Assembly (NCBI GenBank): GCA_017624835.1
Contig: JAGAMG010000055.1
Coordinates: forward strand, 1 to 44,936
DNA: 44,936 nucleotides
Direction: 5' to 3'
From: Lachnospiraceae bacterium
Lineage (GTDB): Bacteria > Bacillota > Clostridia > Lachnospirales > Lachnospiraceae
The notes below the pieces were generated by a model. The model did no database searches. It worked only from the letters and a program-made list of their open reading frames with translations, and was not told where the DNA came from. A program made the position numbers and the translations under genes. Positions 35,271 to 39,801 of this stretch are shown piece by piece (the first letter of the stretch is position 1; every line of letters starts with the position of its first letter).

Positions 35271-35801
35271 TTAATCACAGTCAACACCTAATCTATATTT
35301 TCCACAGTGAATACACCGAAACAAATAACCGGCTAAAGAACCACCTTTTGCCAACCATTCGTTTTGAAAATCAAAATCATTTTCTTCTTTATATTCATCA
35401 ATAATACTTTCCAGATTCATTTCCTTTAACTCTTCATATCCCACATCCCCTAGATATTCGCAATAATCATCACAACATGCCAGCCAGTATTCCCCCTGCC
35501 ATGAACAATATCCCGGCGTTCTCAAAAATAACTCATCCCTTTTCTTTTCATCCGATATTTCTTCTGCATCCTGAATAAATTCACCTGCAAATTTATCTGC
35601 TGCTTTTCCACTTGCTACACATTCCATACAGATACACTCAATATCCGCAGTACAATACATGGATGTTATATATACATCTGTTTTATTTCCACAACACTGG
35701 CAAATACCCTCTCCATATGTAACACTATCTAATACTTTTTCTGAATTATAGATATTGGGATGATATTTAAACTTTGGTAACTTTGAAATTCTATTGTCCA
35801 T
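35271..35801 (-). CDS. CbrC family protein (UPF0167)
   Basis: A 176-residue protein with the UPF0167/CbrC layout. It begins LPKFKYHPNIYNSEKVLDS, followed by zinc-type cysteine pairs (GICQCCGNKTDVY, CICMECVASGKAA) and a final FRCIHCGKYRLGVDCD. The E. coli member CbrC is linked to colicin E2 tolerance, by an unknown mechanism. GGAAAGGAAAG lies before the ATG. It ends 23 bases before the phosphatase gene start and may be cotranscribed with it. Confidence 0.85.
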   Translation of the reverse strand: MDNRISKLPKFKYHPNIYNSEKVLDSVTYGEGICQCCGNKTDVYITSMYCTADIECICMECVASGKAADKFAGEFIQDAEEISDEKKRDELFLRTPGYCSWQGEYWLACCDDYCEYLGDVGYEELKEMNLESIIDEYKEENDFDFQNEWLAKGGSLAGYLFRCIHCGKYRLGVDCD

Positions 35802-36256: not shown

Positions 36257-37510
36257 TTATCTACTCATTTTATTTCGTTTCAAATTACATTCCAATATTT
36301 CCAAAGACAAGGGACAAACACTACCCTGTTTTACCAAATGGATGTTTCCTGTATATGTAACATGTTCGTCCTTGATGAATATGGCACTTTCATCCTCCAT
36401 AGCATAAATGGGCAGATTTTGCTCTAGGGAAATCTGCAACAGGATTTGCAATAATTCCTGATTTTCTTGACTAAAATGTGCTTTAACAGTAATATCAGCC
36501 AGTCCAAGCCCATCATAAGGCACAGGGGATTCCCATATATCAAGAGCACGCTTTGCCATGTTATAGGAACCGGCACTTACGCCTAAAATAACAGCACTGC
36601 TCTTACGAATTTCATCCCCTATACCTTTTTCACAAATCAGTTGAAATTGCTGTACTGCATGTCCCCCCATAAGAAATATACAGGATGCCTCCTGAATGAG
36701 TCGCTTAGCTTCCAAAGCATCCGTCCTGTTATCAATCACGCTGTATCGCTTAAACGACATATGGCATTCCTCAAACATGTGGTTCATCCCCGCCGAATCG
36801 CTGTCATTTCTTTCATAATCAGAAGGCCATGCACTTACAAAAACAAGGCTATCACGATTTATCAACTCTTCTTTCAATCGCTCCGCTATATCCACAGGAA
36901 AATGACGTGTTGGAAATCCGCTGAAAAAACCTAAAAGTTTAGCATTCATTACAGTTTCTCCCTCATGAAGCGCTTCATAGAAAGAATAATCAACAAACCC
37001 ACTTATCCTTTCTAAAGCACCCTTTTCTAATTCTTTCACCATAAGACAGTCCGGATGTGGCAGCTTTATATTGGGACCTGCCTCTATTCCAAATTTGTAG
37101 CTTGACTGAAAACCACGATTATTATAATTGCGTGGATTTCCCTCCACAAGAATCGCTTGAAATCCCAGCCTCTTTGCCACATCAAATCCATATTCCAATA
37201 ATTCCTTTGAAATATGCTGTCTTTGCAGCTGCGTTTTTACAGCAACCGGTGTAAGTATCAGCAATTCGTTTTCGTACTTTCCTTCAATATGAAAACGAGA
37301 AAACATCGCATATCCCATAATCTCGTCATTTTCATTAACCATAATAAGTTCCAATTCCGGGATATAATATTTTTTTGCTCTGATTTCTTCTACCAATCGT
37401 CTTACAATTTTGCCCTCCTTTGGACTATCATATTCCGTAAAAACCTCTTGCACCAGCTCCAGTGACGGAAGAAGATATTTCTTCTCCATCGATTTTATAA
37501 TACGCTTCAT
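36257..37510 (-). CDS. GNAT acetyltransferase - S51 peptidase fusion
   Basis: A 417-residue two-domain protein. Residues about 1-165 form a GNAT domain (LILTPVAVKTQLQRQHISKE as the acetyl-CoA loop, VEGNPRNYNNRGFQ as the following motif). Residues about 205-400 form a peptidase S51 domain of the dipeptidase E/cyanophycinase type, with LVFVSAWPSDYERN, the FLMGGHAVQQF block and the nucleophile elbow AVILGVSAGSYNMA; a likely His is in VKAHF. S51 enzymes cleave Asp-X or aspartyl peptides. GAGGAGG precedes the ATG. It lies 15 bases after the MutS2-like gene, so it probably shares that attenuated transcript. Confidence 0.88.
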   Translation of the reverse strand: MKRIIKSMEKKYLLPSLELVQEVFTEYDSPKEGKIVRRLVEEIRAKKYYIPELELIMVNENDEIMGYAMFSRFHIEGKYENELLILTPVAVKTQLQRQHISKELLEYGFDVAKRLGFQAILVEGNPRNYNNRGFQSSYKFGIEAGPNIKLPHPDCLMVKELEKGALERISGFVDYSFYEALHEGETVMNAKLLGFFSGFPTRHFPVDIAERLKEELINRDSLVFVSAWPSDYERNDSDSAGMNHMFEECHMSFKRYSVIDNRTDALEAKRLIQEASCIFLMGGHAVQQFQLICEKGIGDEIRKSSAVILGVSAGSYNMAKRALDIWESPVPYDGLGLADITVKAHFSQENQELLQILLQISLEQNLPIYAMEDESAIFIKDEHVTYTGNIHLVKQGSVCPLSLEILECNLKRNKMSR

Positions 37511-37525
37511 TGTATCAATCCTCCT

Positions 37526-39427
37526 CTAATCCTCTGACTCTATCACAGCATCCGTATATTTTCTTTGCATATCATGCCTCTTTTTTCGATTTTCAACGGT
37601 TTCAAATATAATGGAAAAATCATAATCCTCCGGATAAAGCTCTGTTGCTGCCACATGCAATTTTACCCTCTTATGATTAATCCAAATTTTTTTATTGGGT
37701 AGCTGTACTCTTAACACACCTTTTTCATTAATTGGTACACACACTATTCCTATCTTTTTCTCAGGATAAACCATTACACTATCGCCGATTTTATACTTGG
37801 TACTAAGCTCAGCATTATTTTTTCCGGTTTTCGTTTTTGTAATTTTAGGAACACTTTTCTTAATGATATTAGTTCCCTGATTACGAAATGAATAGGATTT
37901 TATCGCTTCTTCGCCATATGCTGCATGAATCGCCACCTTCAACATTTCCTCCGGCATCCCTAATCTGTCTGCAATATAAAATGCACAGCTTTCACCAGCT
38001 TCTCCTATCACCATTTGATAGGTAGGACATAAGGTTTCTTTGTCAAAGGCCATTCTTGCATTCACAATATCCTCTGCCTTGGCTGCATATTCCTTCACCT
38101 CCGGGTAATGAGTTGTTACCAGGAAAAGGGCACCGCTTTTTCTAAGCTCTTCCAGGATTGCAATTGCAATCCCCATACCCTCCGTAGGGTCCGTACCGGA
38201 GCCTAATTCATCCATAATAACAAAGCTATCCTTATTTGCTTCCCTTAAAACCTCCAACACATTCGTAATGTGTGCAGAAAAGGTAGACAGATTTTCCGAC
38301 AAATTCTGTCCATCGCCAATATCACATAAATAAGAGCTATTCATACAAATATCTGCCTGCTTACATGTGACATGCAGTCCGCACTGGGCCATAATACAAT
38401 TTAGCATAACCGTCTTAATTGCTACGGTTTTTCCTCCCGTGTTAGGTCCTGTAATAACAATACCTCGAACTCTTTCGCCTACCTCAAACTGCAATGGAAC
38501 CGCTACTTCTTTCTCCATTAAGGGATGACGTGCTTCCAATAATTTCATTCTTCTTTCCGTATTAATTATGGGCTCAGAAGCCTCCATATCTACACTTAAT
38601 TTGCCCTTGGAAAAAATAAAATCCAGCTTTTCAATCATTGTTAAATCTGCATATAATACTGGTGCTGCTGCCATAACCAACGCGGATAAGGTATACAGAA
38701 TGTTATATACTTCGTTTTCTTCGCTTATTTTAAGCAATTGCAGCTCTTCATAATATTTTGCAACACTTGAAGGTTCTATGAAAAGTGTGCTGCCTGTAGA
38801 AGACTTGTCTATCATGCTACCGGATATCTTAAACTTGTATTCCTTTTTTACCGGAAGGCATAGCCGACCATTTCTGAATGTACAATAATTATCTGCCATA
38901 CATTCCTTATTAGAGCGCAGAATTTGTTCGGCCTTTTGTTTCATTTGTTCTTCACATTTTGTGATTTGCTTTCGTATCTGCTCTAATTCCTTTGATGCAT
39001 AATCATCCACAGCTCCATTCCGGATTTTATTGCATATTTCCTGTCTCAATTCTGAAACATCATCCAGATTTTCATCATAATAAGCCAACGAATTCTGATA
39101 CACTTTTCCCCTTGCCAAATAATCCTTAAGGCGTCTTACTACCACCAAAACTTTTTCCACCCGCTCTAATTGATAGGGTGATAAACAATCCCCTTTTTCC
39201 GCTATCATCAGAACTTCTTTTATTTCTGTAATGTTTTGTAATGGCGGTGTTCCCAATTTTTCAATCAAAAATCTGGCATCCGTTGTATCTTTTAATTGCT
39301 TTTTCAGTTCATTTTCTGAAAAATACAGGCTCGCATCTCTTATTTTTTCTTTAGCCCAATCCGTAATAGCCAAATCGGACCATATTTCTTTCACTTTATC
39401 AAATTCAATTTGTTTTTCAATATTCAT
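37526..39427 (-). CDS. MutS2-like ATPase lacking the Smr domain
   Basis: A 633-residue protein of the MutS2 branch. The core clamp region contains the coiled segment ELEQIRKQITKCEEQMKQKA. The ATPase has Walker A ITGPNTGGKTVAIKT, the SENLSTFSAHI block, Walker B SFVIMDELGSGTDPTEG and TTHYPEVKEYA. Full MutS2 (about 780 residues) ends with KOW-like and Smr nuclease domains; here the protein stops soon after a KOW-like segment (YKIGDSVMVYPEKKIGIV), so Smr is missing. MutS2/RqcU splits collided ribosomes in Bacillus. The gene lies behind a leader peptide and conditional terminator, so its synthesis appears to respond to translation. GAGGGAAAG precedes the ATG. Confidence 0.92.
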   Translation of the reverse strand: MNIEKQIEFDKVKEIWSDLAITDWAKEKIRDASLYFSENELKKQLKDTTDARFLIEKLGTPPLQNITEIKEVLMIAEKGDCLSPYQLERVEKVLVVVRRLKDYLARGKVYQNSLAYYDENLDDVSELRQEICNKIRNGAVDDYASKELEQIRKQITKCEEQMKQKAEQILRSNKECMADNYCTFRNGRLCLPVKKEYKFKISGSMIDKSSTGSTLFIEPSSVAKYYEELQLLKISEENEVYNILYTLSALVMAAAPVLYADLTMIEKLDFIFSKGKLSVDMEASEPIINTERRMKLLEARHPLMEKEVAVPLQFEVGERVRGIVITGPNTGGKTVAIKTVMLNCIMAQCGLHVTCKQADICMNSSYLCDIGDGQNLSENLSTFSAHITNVLEVLREANKDSFVIMDELGSGTDPTEGMGIAIAILEELRKSGALFLVTTHYPEVKEYAAKAEDIVNARMAFDKETLCPTYQMVIGEAGESCAFYIADRLGMPEEMLKVAIHAAYGEEAIKSYSFRNQGTNIIKKSVPKITKTKTGKNNAELSTKYKIGDSVMVYPEKKIGIVCVPINEKGVLRVQLPNKKIWINHKRVKLHVAATELYPEDYDFSIIFETVENRKKRHDMQRKYTDAVIESED

Positions 39428-39471
39428 TTTTCTTTCCCTCGCATTCCAGACTGTAGCTTCGCCTTAAACGC

Positions 39472-39516
39472 AAAAAGACCACAGATACCTTAAGTGCATT
39501 AAGATACTATGGTCTT
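39472..39516 (-). terminator. Leader terminator (attenuator) before the MutS2-like gene
   Basis: In the minus-strand RNA the arms 39516-39499 and 39492-39475 form a stem of about 18 bp (two G-U pairs, one bulge) capped by a short loop, followed by TTTTT. It ends 45 bases before the start codon. A 7-base segment TATGGTC (39575-39569) is complementary to GACCATA in its 5' arm (39514-39508) and can act as antiterminator. Confidence 0.85.
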
Positions 39517-39539
39517 GAAATCTCGATATGATTATTCCC

Positions 39540-39663
39540 GCTATTTCAAAAAGACAGAAAAATAGCATGACCATACAGTCACGCTAATATCATCAATGGA
39601 AATATATATACCACAATATTAAGCAATTGTAAGGCGAAAACGTTGGCAACTTACGTGCCAACA
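39540..39663 (-). promoter_or_regulatory. Hairpin chain in the MutS2-like leader RNA
   Basis: Three stem-loops are visible: GTTGGCA/TGCCAAC (39643-39663), GCGTGAC/GTCATGC (39565-39584, one G-U) and GCTATTT/AAATAGC (39540-39566). The second covers part of the antiterminator segment. TTCGCCTTA (39639-39631) can also pair over a long distance with TAAGGCGAA (39466-39458) just before the coding region. Confidence 0.65.
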
Positions 39664-39706
39664 AATGGGCAGACTCCTAGTGCATACTAAAATTGCCCTG
39701 CAATAT

Positions 39707-39745
39707 TTATTTTGCAATTTTCTCCATTACAATAACACTTAACAT
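39707..39745 (-). CDS. Leader peptide of the MutS2-like gene
   Basis: A 12-codon frame, MLSVIVMEKIAK, with a perfect AGGAGG seven bases before its ATG. It starts about 20 bases after the predicted transcription start and is followed by about 280 bases of structured leader and a terminator. The hydrophobic SVIVM core recalls drug-sensing erm leaders (for example the IFVI and IAVV stalling motifs), but the likeness is short and could be chance. Confidence 0.72.
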   Translation of the reverse strand: MLSVIVMEKIAK

Positions 39746-39772
39746 GCAAAATCCTCCTAAAACTTTTTCTAC

Positions 39773-39801
39773 ATTGTACATCCACTTACATGATTGGTCA
39801 A
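39773..39801 (-). promoter_or_regulatory. Promoter of the MutS2-like leader transcript
   Basis: On the minus strand TTGACC (39796-39801), 17 bases, TACAAT (39773-39778). Predicted start near 39766, only about eight bases before the leader-peptide ribosome site. Confidence 0.78.

Follow-up and report, generated by a model that had tools for sequence, protein, structure and literature searches.

A putative ribosome-stall-controlled attenuator ahead of an Smr-less MutS2 family of Bacillota

A short MutS2 paralogue and its upstream region

The window studied here, a stretch of 44,936 nucleotides from a Lachnospiraceae bacterium (contig JAGAMG010000055.1 of assembly GCA_017624835.1), carries on its minus strand a gene for a shortened MutS2 paralogue, preceded by a promoter, a 12-codon leader open reading frame (ORF) and two terminators. 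An earlier note, made from the DNA letters alone, had read this arrangement as an attenuator that switches the gene on when ribosomes stall, and the sequence comparisons reported here support that interpretation. In the order of transcription, the features are the following:

39773..39801, minus strand: sigma-A type promoter, TTGACC-17-TACAAT, 10 of 12
39753..39758, minus strand: Shine-Dalgarno (SD) sequence of the leader, AGGAGG, a perfect match
39707..39745, minus strand: leader ORF MLSVIVMEKIAK and its stop, 12 codons
39642..39662, minus strand: covarying hairpin in the interval from leader to anti-leader, 6 of 8 pairs changed on both sides
39611..39640, minus strand: anti-leader block UUUUCGCCUUACAAUUGCUUAAUAUUGUGG, which would pair with the leader codons (OFF) or with the foot of T1 (ON)
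39574..39631, minus strand: predicted antiterminator, in which the anti-leader pairs with T1 (foot and 5' arm); from folding with the leader held single-stranded
39563..39586, minus strand: terminator T1, stem-loop and U run (97.4% of cells paired in helix 4)
39472..39516, minus strand: terminator T2, about 45 bases ahead of the start codon
37526..39427, minus strand: short MutS2 paralogue of 633 residues, with an ABC ATPase, a KOW-like segment, no Smr and a C-terminal tail of its own
36257..37510, minus strand: GNAT and peptidase-S51 protein, 15 bases behind the short MutS2; probably a co-transcribed accessory gene

The promoter (TTGACC-17-TACAAT, 10 of 12), the 12-codon frame with its perfect AGGAGG (39745-39707 and 39758-39753) and the chain of hairpins are all present as the earlier note had described them, and the 353-base upstream stretch folds better than 100 of 100 shuffles (z -5.9). 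Transcription probably starts near 39766. Under promoter, leader and terminator rules of our own choosing, promoters that match at 9 or more of the 12 positions precede the leader in 47 of 53 loci of Lachnospiraceae type, the window among them, as against 176 of 1060 shuffles, and in 40 of 44 distant loci, as against 180 of 880 shuffles.

The product of 37526-39427 scores 535.7 bits against the MutS2 model TIGR01069 (cut-off 400), in a match restricted to profile positions 3-509 of 790. Its best matches among solved structures, over residues 5-499, are the MutS2 entries 7qv3 and 8qpp, which we take to be B. subtilis MutS2 on ribosomes. In two overlapping sets of aligned short proteins, Pfam MutS_V is present in 29/29 and 33/33, and the Walker-type residues are invariant across the alignment; Pfam Smr is found in 0/29 and 0/33, as against 7/7 canonical MutS2 proteins, all seven of which hold MutS_V, Smr and the KOW-like MSSS domain. 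An HGxGxG motif beyond residue 500 is likewise absent from all 80 short proteins checked. Profile comparison with hhalign aligns the short family with canonical MutS2 up to residue 591, across the KOW region, and skips the coiled coil, which is missing from the short family. In the C-terminal tail, R587, L597-Y598-P599, Y602-D603 and R614-K615 are invariant in 29 short rows, and the motif LYP..YD recurs in 79/80 and 28/28 short proteins and in 0/20 canonical ones. Judged from these alignments, a short conserved tail has taken the place of the coiled coil and Smr in the short MutS2. The Smr-less MutS2 of the earlier note is thus borne out, in a clade distinct from canonical MutS2; its phrase "without its nuclease" holds for the missing Smr, but the label nuclease calls for caution, since PMC10897456 reports no mRNA cleavage for B. 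subtilis MutS2.

As its relatives indicate, the short MutS2 is a family and not a degraded copy. Pattern matches in genome contigs numbered 180. A relative is encoded by 122 of them, and the analysis kept the best 80; 75 of the 80 are 620-660 residues long, and the rest measure 613, 668, 691, 714 and 493, the last being L067, with an early stop. In a scan of 398 sampled Bacillota genomes (own genome included), with up to three candidates scored per genome, at least 31 hold a match of the short kind, at 692 bits or more, and 30 of these matches are full length; canonical MutS2 appears from 649 bits downward, with partial coverage. Twenty canonical copies from genomes that also carry the short gene are 785-820 residues long, 19 of them with an HGxGxG-type Smr motif. 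A tree built by a quick method on the first 520 residues (523 columns; the long branches L195 and L123 are flagged) has one branch that divides 71 short rows from 29 canonical rows (SH-aLRT 99); on this tree, the short MutS2 forms a separate clade, outside that of canonical MutS2.

The genome of the window, which is 84.8% complete, yielded no canonical MutS2, and 26 of 36 other same-genus genomes examined have one; the short paralogue may be alone there, or the canonical gene may be absent from the assembly. Public records annotate L122 and L124 as "endonuclease MutS2" and "DNA mismatch repair protein MutS", though both belong to the short family without Smr. A plasmid origin was rejected, the leader DNA giving one chance-like match against plasmids. 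So was a phage origin: three phage records cover at least 80% of the protein query, and the two that were read (L120 and L121) are probably bacterial DNA. These two are unannotated wastewater contigs, labelled Enterococcus and Listeria phage, that look like fragments of bacterial chromosomes, and their short MutS2 genes are preceded by the leaders MSVVGI and MSVAGI.

Conservation of the leader, the terminators and their pairings

The earlier note had proposed a covariance model of the upstream regions and would have counted a lack of conserved leader frame or terminator in homologues against its reading; both proved to be conserved across the family. The covariance model used here, R1, was built from 35 rows and matches upstream in 69 of the 80 loci at E<=0.01, in 64 of them above 29 bits. 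The five weak matches (L055, L068, L069, L070 and L079) reach 20-24 bits and are hardly better than three reverse-strand matches of the same search, at 19-21 bits. Among the 46 loci outside the training rows, 35 match, 30 of them above 29 bits. The 11 misses include L007, L018 and L038, which have little upstream DNA, six loci with an ABC-2 permease directly upstream, L065, with a methyltransferase directly upstream, and L008, for which no such explanation offers itself.

The leader was recovered in 52 of the 80 loci in addition to the window (SD and a BLOSUM score of at least 20, within 750 bases). Among 41 distinct 12-codon leaders, differences at codon positions 1, 2 and 3 number 44, 46 and 78, and constancy is greatest at codons 6, 2 and 11 (Val in 40, Leu in 39 and Ala in 37 of the 41). 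At up to three mismatches the leader sequence occurs at a single place in its own genome, and a leader common to many genes of that genome was rejected on this count.

Between leader and gene, at least one terminator is present in 53/53 Lachnospiraceae-type loci and at least two in 39/53. T1 starts 157-184 bases past the leader ATG wherever the T1 pattern matched (32/53 loci, window included); the distance from element to gene, unlike this spacing, varies widely. Compared across loci, T1 is the core terminator of the conserved element and better conserved than T2, the strong terminator about 45 bases ahead of the start codon that the earlier note had singled out; the latter is present, and the best-conserved terminator is the one before it. 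T2 as a dispersed repeat was rejected, for its sequence occupies one place in its own genome at up to two mismatches, as does the reversed control pattern. In the leader-T1 interval, the block TTTTCGCCTTACAATTGCTTAATATTGTGG is highly conserved, and the consensus fold pairs it with the leader codons. Two-sided changes occur in 11 of 33 pairs, as against a shuffled mean of 4.4, and none of 500 shuffles reached as high; when the pairing partners are slid, the two-sided pairs fall to 2-8. The alignment A4 left out L077, one of the 35 reference stretches. Membership in an Rfam family was rejected for want of a match at the gathering threshold in the stretches searched: the window gave none at thresholds, the leader gave two weak matches far under theirs, and the seven matches in ten related loci are all tRNA or ZTP riboswitch.

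In more distant Bacillota, leaders of a similar style recur, among them MSV-stop (L111, L114 and L166), MSVVGI, MSVAGI, MSVIVLL, MMSVSVLN, MMSVLSVMVIIN, MLGVVLN, MIVGVLN and MTTGVLN. In 45 hand-assigned leaders, the serine after the start is written TCG in 18 and AGT in 10. These unrelated serine codons behind an M-S-V start argue for selection on the leader peptide, which itself seems to matter. Members resembling Paenibacillus and Bacillus repeat the final leader codons, GTTCTTAACTAA, as TTAGTTAAGAAC ahead of the terminator, and this spaced pair was found in 3 of the 398 genomes, always just ahead of a short MutS2. Of 45 distant loci, 12 have a perfect leader/anti-leader complement of 9-13 bases at p<=0.01.

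A second distant set comprises L145-L172 (28 loci; L173, contig-cut and with no visible leader, and G843 were left out). All 28 have a terminator within 260 bases, and 21 have the leader motif as well. The leader rule was drawn from the first distant set and written after both sets had been viewed, and these counts are therefore not blind. The same search of neighbouring genes of 18 stretches gave 39 terminators, three motifs and one case of both in 204; of genes preceded by 200 or more bases of free DNA, 22, one and none in 95; of seven canonical MutS2 genes, two, none and none; and of the 20 canonical MutS2 genes from short-gene genomes, none, one and none. In the Lachnospiraceae set, the rule found a terminator in 59, the motif in 33 and both in 33 of 76. 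A stricter first script, run on 29 loci including L173, gave a terminator in 17, a leader in 15 and an 8-base complement in 10. By eye, 28/28 loci of the second set carry a leader of this style, those of L168 and L172 exceeding the 16-codon limit. In several Clostridia (L092, L095 and L145-L151), the second terminator, within the last 130 bases before the short MutS2 start, repeatedly contains an inner motif, CAGGAGCATTCTGC or a variant of it; this motif, which was not seen in T2 of the window, may be a second switch.

An element shared between operons

The earlier note had proposed the GNAT-S51 protein as a co-expressed partner. The gene does lie 15 bases behind the short MutS2, and other GNATs, a methyltransferase or an exporter take part elsewhere, but a GNAT-S51-type gene lies downstream in only 8 of the 80 loci (or 8 of 73 if loci with under 800 bases of downstream DNA are set aside), and the pairing was rejected as a family-wide feature. 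In L216 and L220, a GNAT of the same kind as the window's sits between the attenuator and MutS2. Around the 80 loci, a methyltransferase was seen downstream in four and upstream in three, an ABC-2 permease upstream in seven and another GNAT upstream in four.

R1 has a match in 53 of 138 genomes of the genus, and 50 of the 57 matches listed for these genomes were examined. Ten of them (L199-L208, window included) all lie ahead of a short MutS2. The other 40 stand directly before a short MutS2 (20), an ABC ATPase (9), an S-adenosylmethionine-dependent methyltransferase (4) or a GNAT (3), or on stretches too short to read (4); the assignments of L217 and L233 rest on partial matches. Eight of the nine ABC ATPases are followed by two further exporter genes, and the ninth is cut. 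The short MutS2 is the last gene in 4/9 of the ABC operons, 2/4 of the methyltransferase operons and 2/3 of the GNAT operons; in L229, the GNAT is followed by only a C-terminal piece of MutS2. No short MutS2 was found within 4.5 kb in the ABC operons L211, L221 and L223, and the remaining operons are cut.

By family assignment, the exporter ATPase is ABC_tran in Pfam and nearest to DrrA in NCBIfam (203.9 bits, under the cut-off of 312), and ABC2_membrane_6 is the family of the third gene. For the second, no Pfam or NCBIfam family matched, and it is called a permease from its position and sequence. The methyltransferase genes belong to Methyltransf_25/11 and the GNAT genes to Acetyltransf_1. 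The exporter, methyltransferase and GNAT partners fit a resistance-type cassette, and in kind the operon contents (export, methylation and acetylation) would match those of drug-resistance operons.

The three-gene ABC exporter stands behind the attenuator in L211, L213, L214, L221, L223, L230, L242 and L248, and in four cases the short MutS2 is the fourth gene. G1024 and G019 have two copies of the element each, one ahead of MutS2 and one ahead of the exporter. In the window, a gene for a UPF0167 family protein (35271-35801, minus strand; CbrC-like, below the NCBIfam cut-off) belongs to the same strand run, and behind it lies a low-molecular-weight phosphatase or arsenate-reductase-like gene.

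Operation of the switch, alternatives and known systems

The arrangement would work as follows. Without stress, a ribosome would complete the 12-codon leader and depart, and the leader RNA would pair with the anti-leader, whereupon T1 and then T2 would form and transcription would stop. A ribosome held near the leader start, with a drug of the peptidyl-transferase centre as the likeliest cause, would cover the leader; the anti-leader would then pair with the foot of T1, and RNA polymerase would enter MutS2 and its operon partners. The output would be inducible ribosome rescue or antibiotic protection by the short MutS2. Fold predictions are consistent with this scheme. With the leader free, the anti-leader pairs with it at a mean of 0.64 of positions over 35 loci; with the leader held open and the RNA cut inside T1, pairs between anti-leader and T1 foot average 6.1, as against 1.15 with the leader free, and shuffling the foot lowers the held-open mean to 2.77, the real foot being higher in 29 of the 35 loci. 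In the window, the best fold contains the leader/anti-leader helix as soon as T1 has been completed, and masking the leader lets the antiterminator form. An antiterminator as such had been proposed in the earlier note as a 7-base candidate; the one predicted here is larger (39631-39574), with the anti-leader as its 5' arm. By folding and covariation, leader pairing and antiterminator appear to be mutually exclusive.

For the function of the protein, the closest guide is B. subtilis MutS2, which splits stalled ribosomes through its ATPase and without mRNA cleavage; B. subtilis cells that have lost mutS2 are more easily inhibited by chloramphenicol, tetracycline and erythromycin, the ATPase is critical, and mutation of KOW or SMR brings only modest sensitivity to erythromycin (PMC10897456). 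Given these results, it is plausible that a paralogue with intact ATPase motifs and a KOW-like segment but no Smr splits ribosomes, and its KOW-like domain could hold the protein on the ribosome. We infer that stalling is the signal, an antibiotic its cause and ribosome splitting the output. Taken together, we consider it quite likely that a ribosome-stall-controlled transcription attenuator stands before this Smr-less MutS2 family and that the family probably serves as an inducible rescue or antibiotic-protection factor. The leaders of MSV-stop length would point to inhibitors of the first peptide bonds more than to macrolides.

Several observations weigh against this reading. The leader helix has two-sided changes in only 2 of 12 pairs, most such pairs lying in the middle hairpin and T1, and the leader codons of the 41 distinct leaders differ nonsynonymously in 95 cases and synonymously in 46, so that coding constraint is partial. 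The RLR/RYR macrolide motif is absent from MLSVIVMEKIAK and, by eye, also from the hand-assigned leaders of distant loci. L008, whose protein is 86% identical and which has 2 kb of upstream DNA, yielded no leader or attenuator. At E<=0.1, R1 finds just 12 of the 55 distant short loci and has one match elsewhere (L132); 33 of the 45 distant loci miss p<=0.01 for a perfect leader/anti-leader complement, and in duplex energy the margin over shuffles is modest (mean z -1.1 and -1.7). In the protein, Pfam MSSS stays below threshold for the KOW-like segment (0/29 short proteins versus 7/7 canonical). In the folds, leader/anti-leader pairing of the window is near zero (0.06) in the truncated RNA, and T1 dominates the full transcript even with the leader masked (7.99 versus 8.45 pairs); because T1 wins there either way, the switch must be kinetic and be decided during the transcription of T1.

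It is possible, if rather unlikely in our view, that the attenuator senses faltering translation generally, whether from slow initiation, amino-acid shortage or collisions, and that the short MutS2 is a rescue factor for housekeeping stress. Such a sensor needs no run of a single amino acid, which would mark a charging sensor and which the leader does not have, and the MSV-stop leaders of L111, L114 and L166 are too short for much drug-specific nascent-chain arrest; the three-codon leader of VmlR is, however, still drug-responsive (PMC9226507). Moreover, the exporter, methyltransferase and acetyltransferase partners are typical of drug-resistance operons, and a patchy spread, over at least 31 of 398 Bacillota genomes, is unlike that of a core stress factor.

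Two further readings, which we hold to be less probable still, dispense with the leader peptide or with the ribosome. The leader frame might be a by-product of RNA structure, with a riboswitch-like RNA that senses a protein or metabolite controlling the terminators and with leader translation irrelevant; this would suit an RNA that is strongly structured and conserved beyond the leader as well, and a leader whose nonsynonymous differences exceed the synonymous ones. Against it, SD and short frame persist through the changes in RNA sequence across the family, the M-S-V start is written with two unrelated sets of serine codons, and no Rfam family reached threshold on the leaders searched, so that we find this reading hard to credit. 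We give about as little credence to the notion that the protein acts on branched DNA or in recombination, in the manner of MutS and without splitting ribosomes, the attenuator merely coupling it to the state of translation. Public records do name such genes "endonuclease MutS2" or "DNA mismatch repair protein MutS", but the nearest structures are the MutS2 entries 7qv3 and 8qpp, Smr is missing, and stall-controlled leaders suit translation factors, a leader together with a terminator being found ahead of 0/20 canonical MutS2 genes.

Returning to the stall-controlled, drug-inducible attenuator, we lean slightly towards a wider proposal: the Smr-less MutS2 with its M-S-V-leader attenuator would be a third, widespread kind of inducible ribosome-protection factor in Bacillota, next to ARE-ABCF proteins and HflXr, and in some Lachnospiraceae its switch would be shared with exporter, methyltransferase and acetyltransferase genes as a small resistance regulon. 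If this is true, many Bacillota, gut Lachnospiraceae among them, hold an inducible ribosome-rescue system that two records label as endonuclease or mismatch repair, and drug-inducible attenuators gain a new effector class. B. subtilis likely has splitting factors beyond MutS2 (PMC11633108), for which the family would then be a candidate. An RNA model of the R1 type would also be a handle for locating operons that may respond to drugs. Among the papers listed by the literature search, none links MutS2 with a leader peptide, an upstream ORF or an attenuator, most subscription papers and bioRxiv preprints being outside its reach; the sole exception was a Pseudomonas review that uses those words separately.

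Among known systems, the comparison begins with HflX, a GTPase of another family, whereas the short MutS2 is a MutS-type ATPase. HflXr of Listeria monocytogenes (lmo0762 under rli80) is also a second copy of a ribosome-splitting factor and has the same sequence of a short leader frame, anti-antiterminator, antiterminator and terminator, which in HflXr is drug-induced; its 14-codon leader has the RLR macrolide motif, which MLSVIVMEKIAK does not (PMC6310831), and the short-MutS2 element, unlike that of HflXr, also serves exporter, methyltransferase and GNAT operons. The ARE-ABCF attenuators likewise combine tiny leaders (VmlR MIN, CplR MR[I/M], VmlR2 MK[L/Q] and LsaA MAGN), pairing of the leader with an anti-antiterminator, a terminator before the gene and a protein for stalled ribosomes (PMC9226507, PMC10201436). 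They differ in that the product here is a MutS2 paralogue, many leaders share M-S-V or V-L-N, and the terminators are often doubled. With canonical MutS2/RqcU, the family shares the MutS core and the ABC ATPase and seems to share the KOW-like segment; it differs in having neither coiled coil nor Smr, a tail of its own and a separate clade, and in the attenuator, which the short genes have and the canonical genes examined do not. The regulatory plan is known from HflXr, VmlR and CplR with other effectors.

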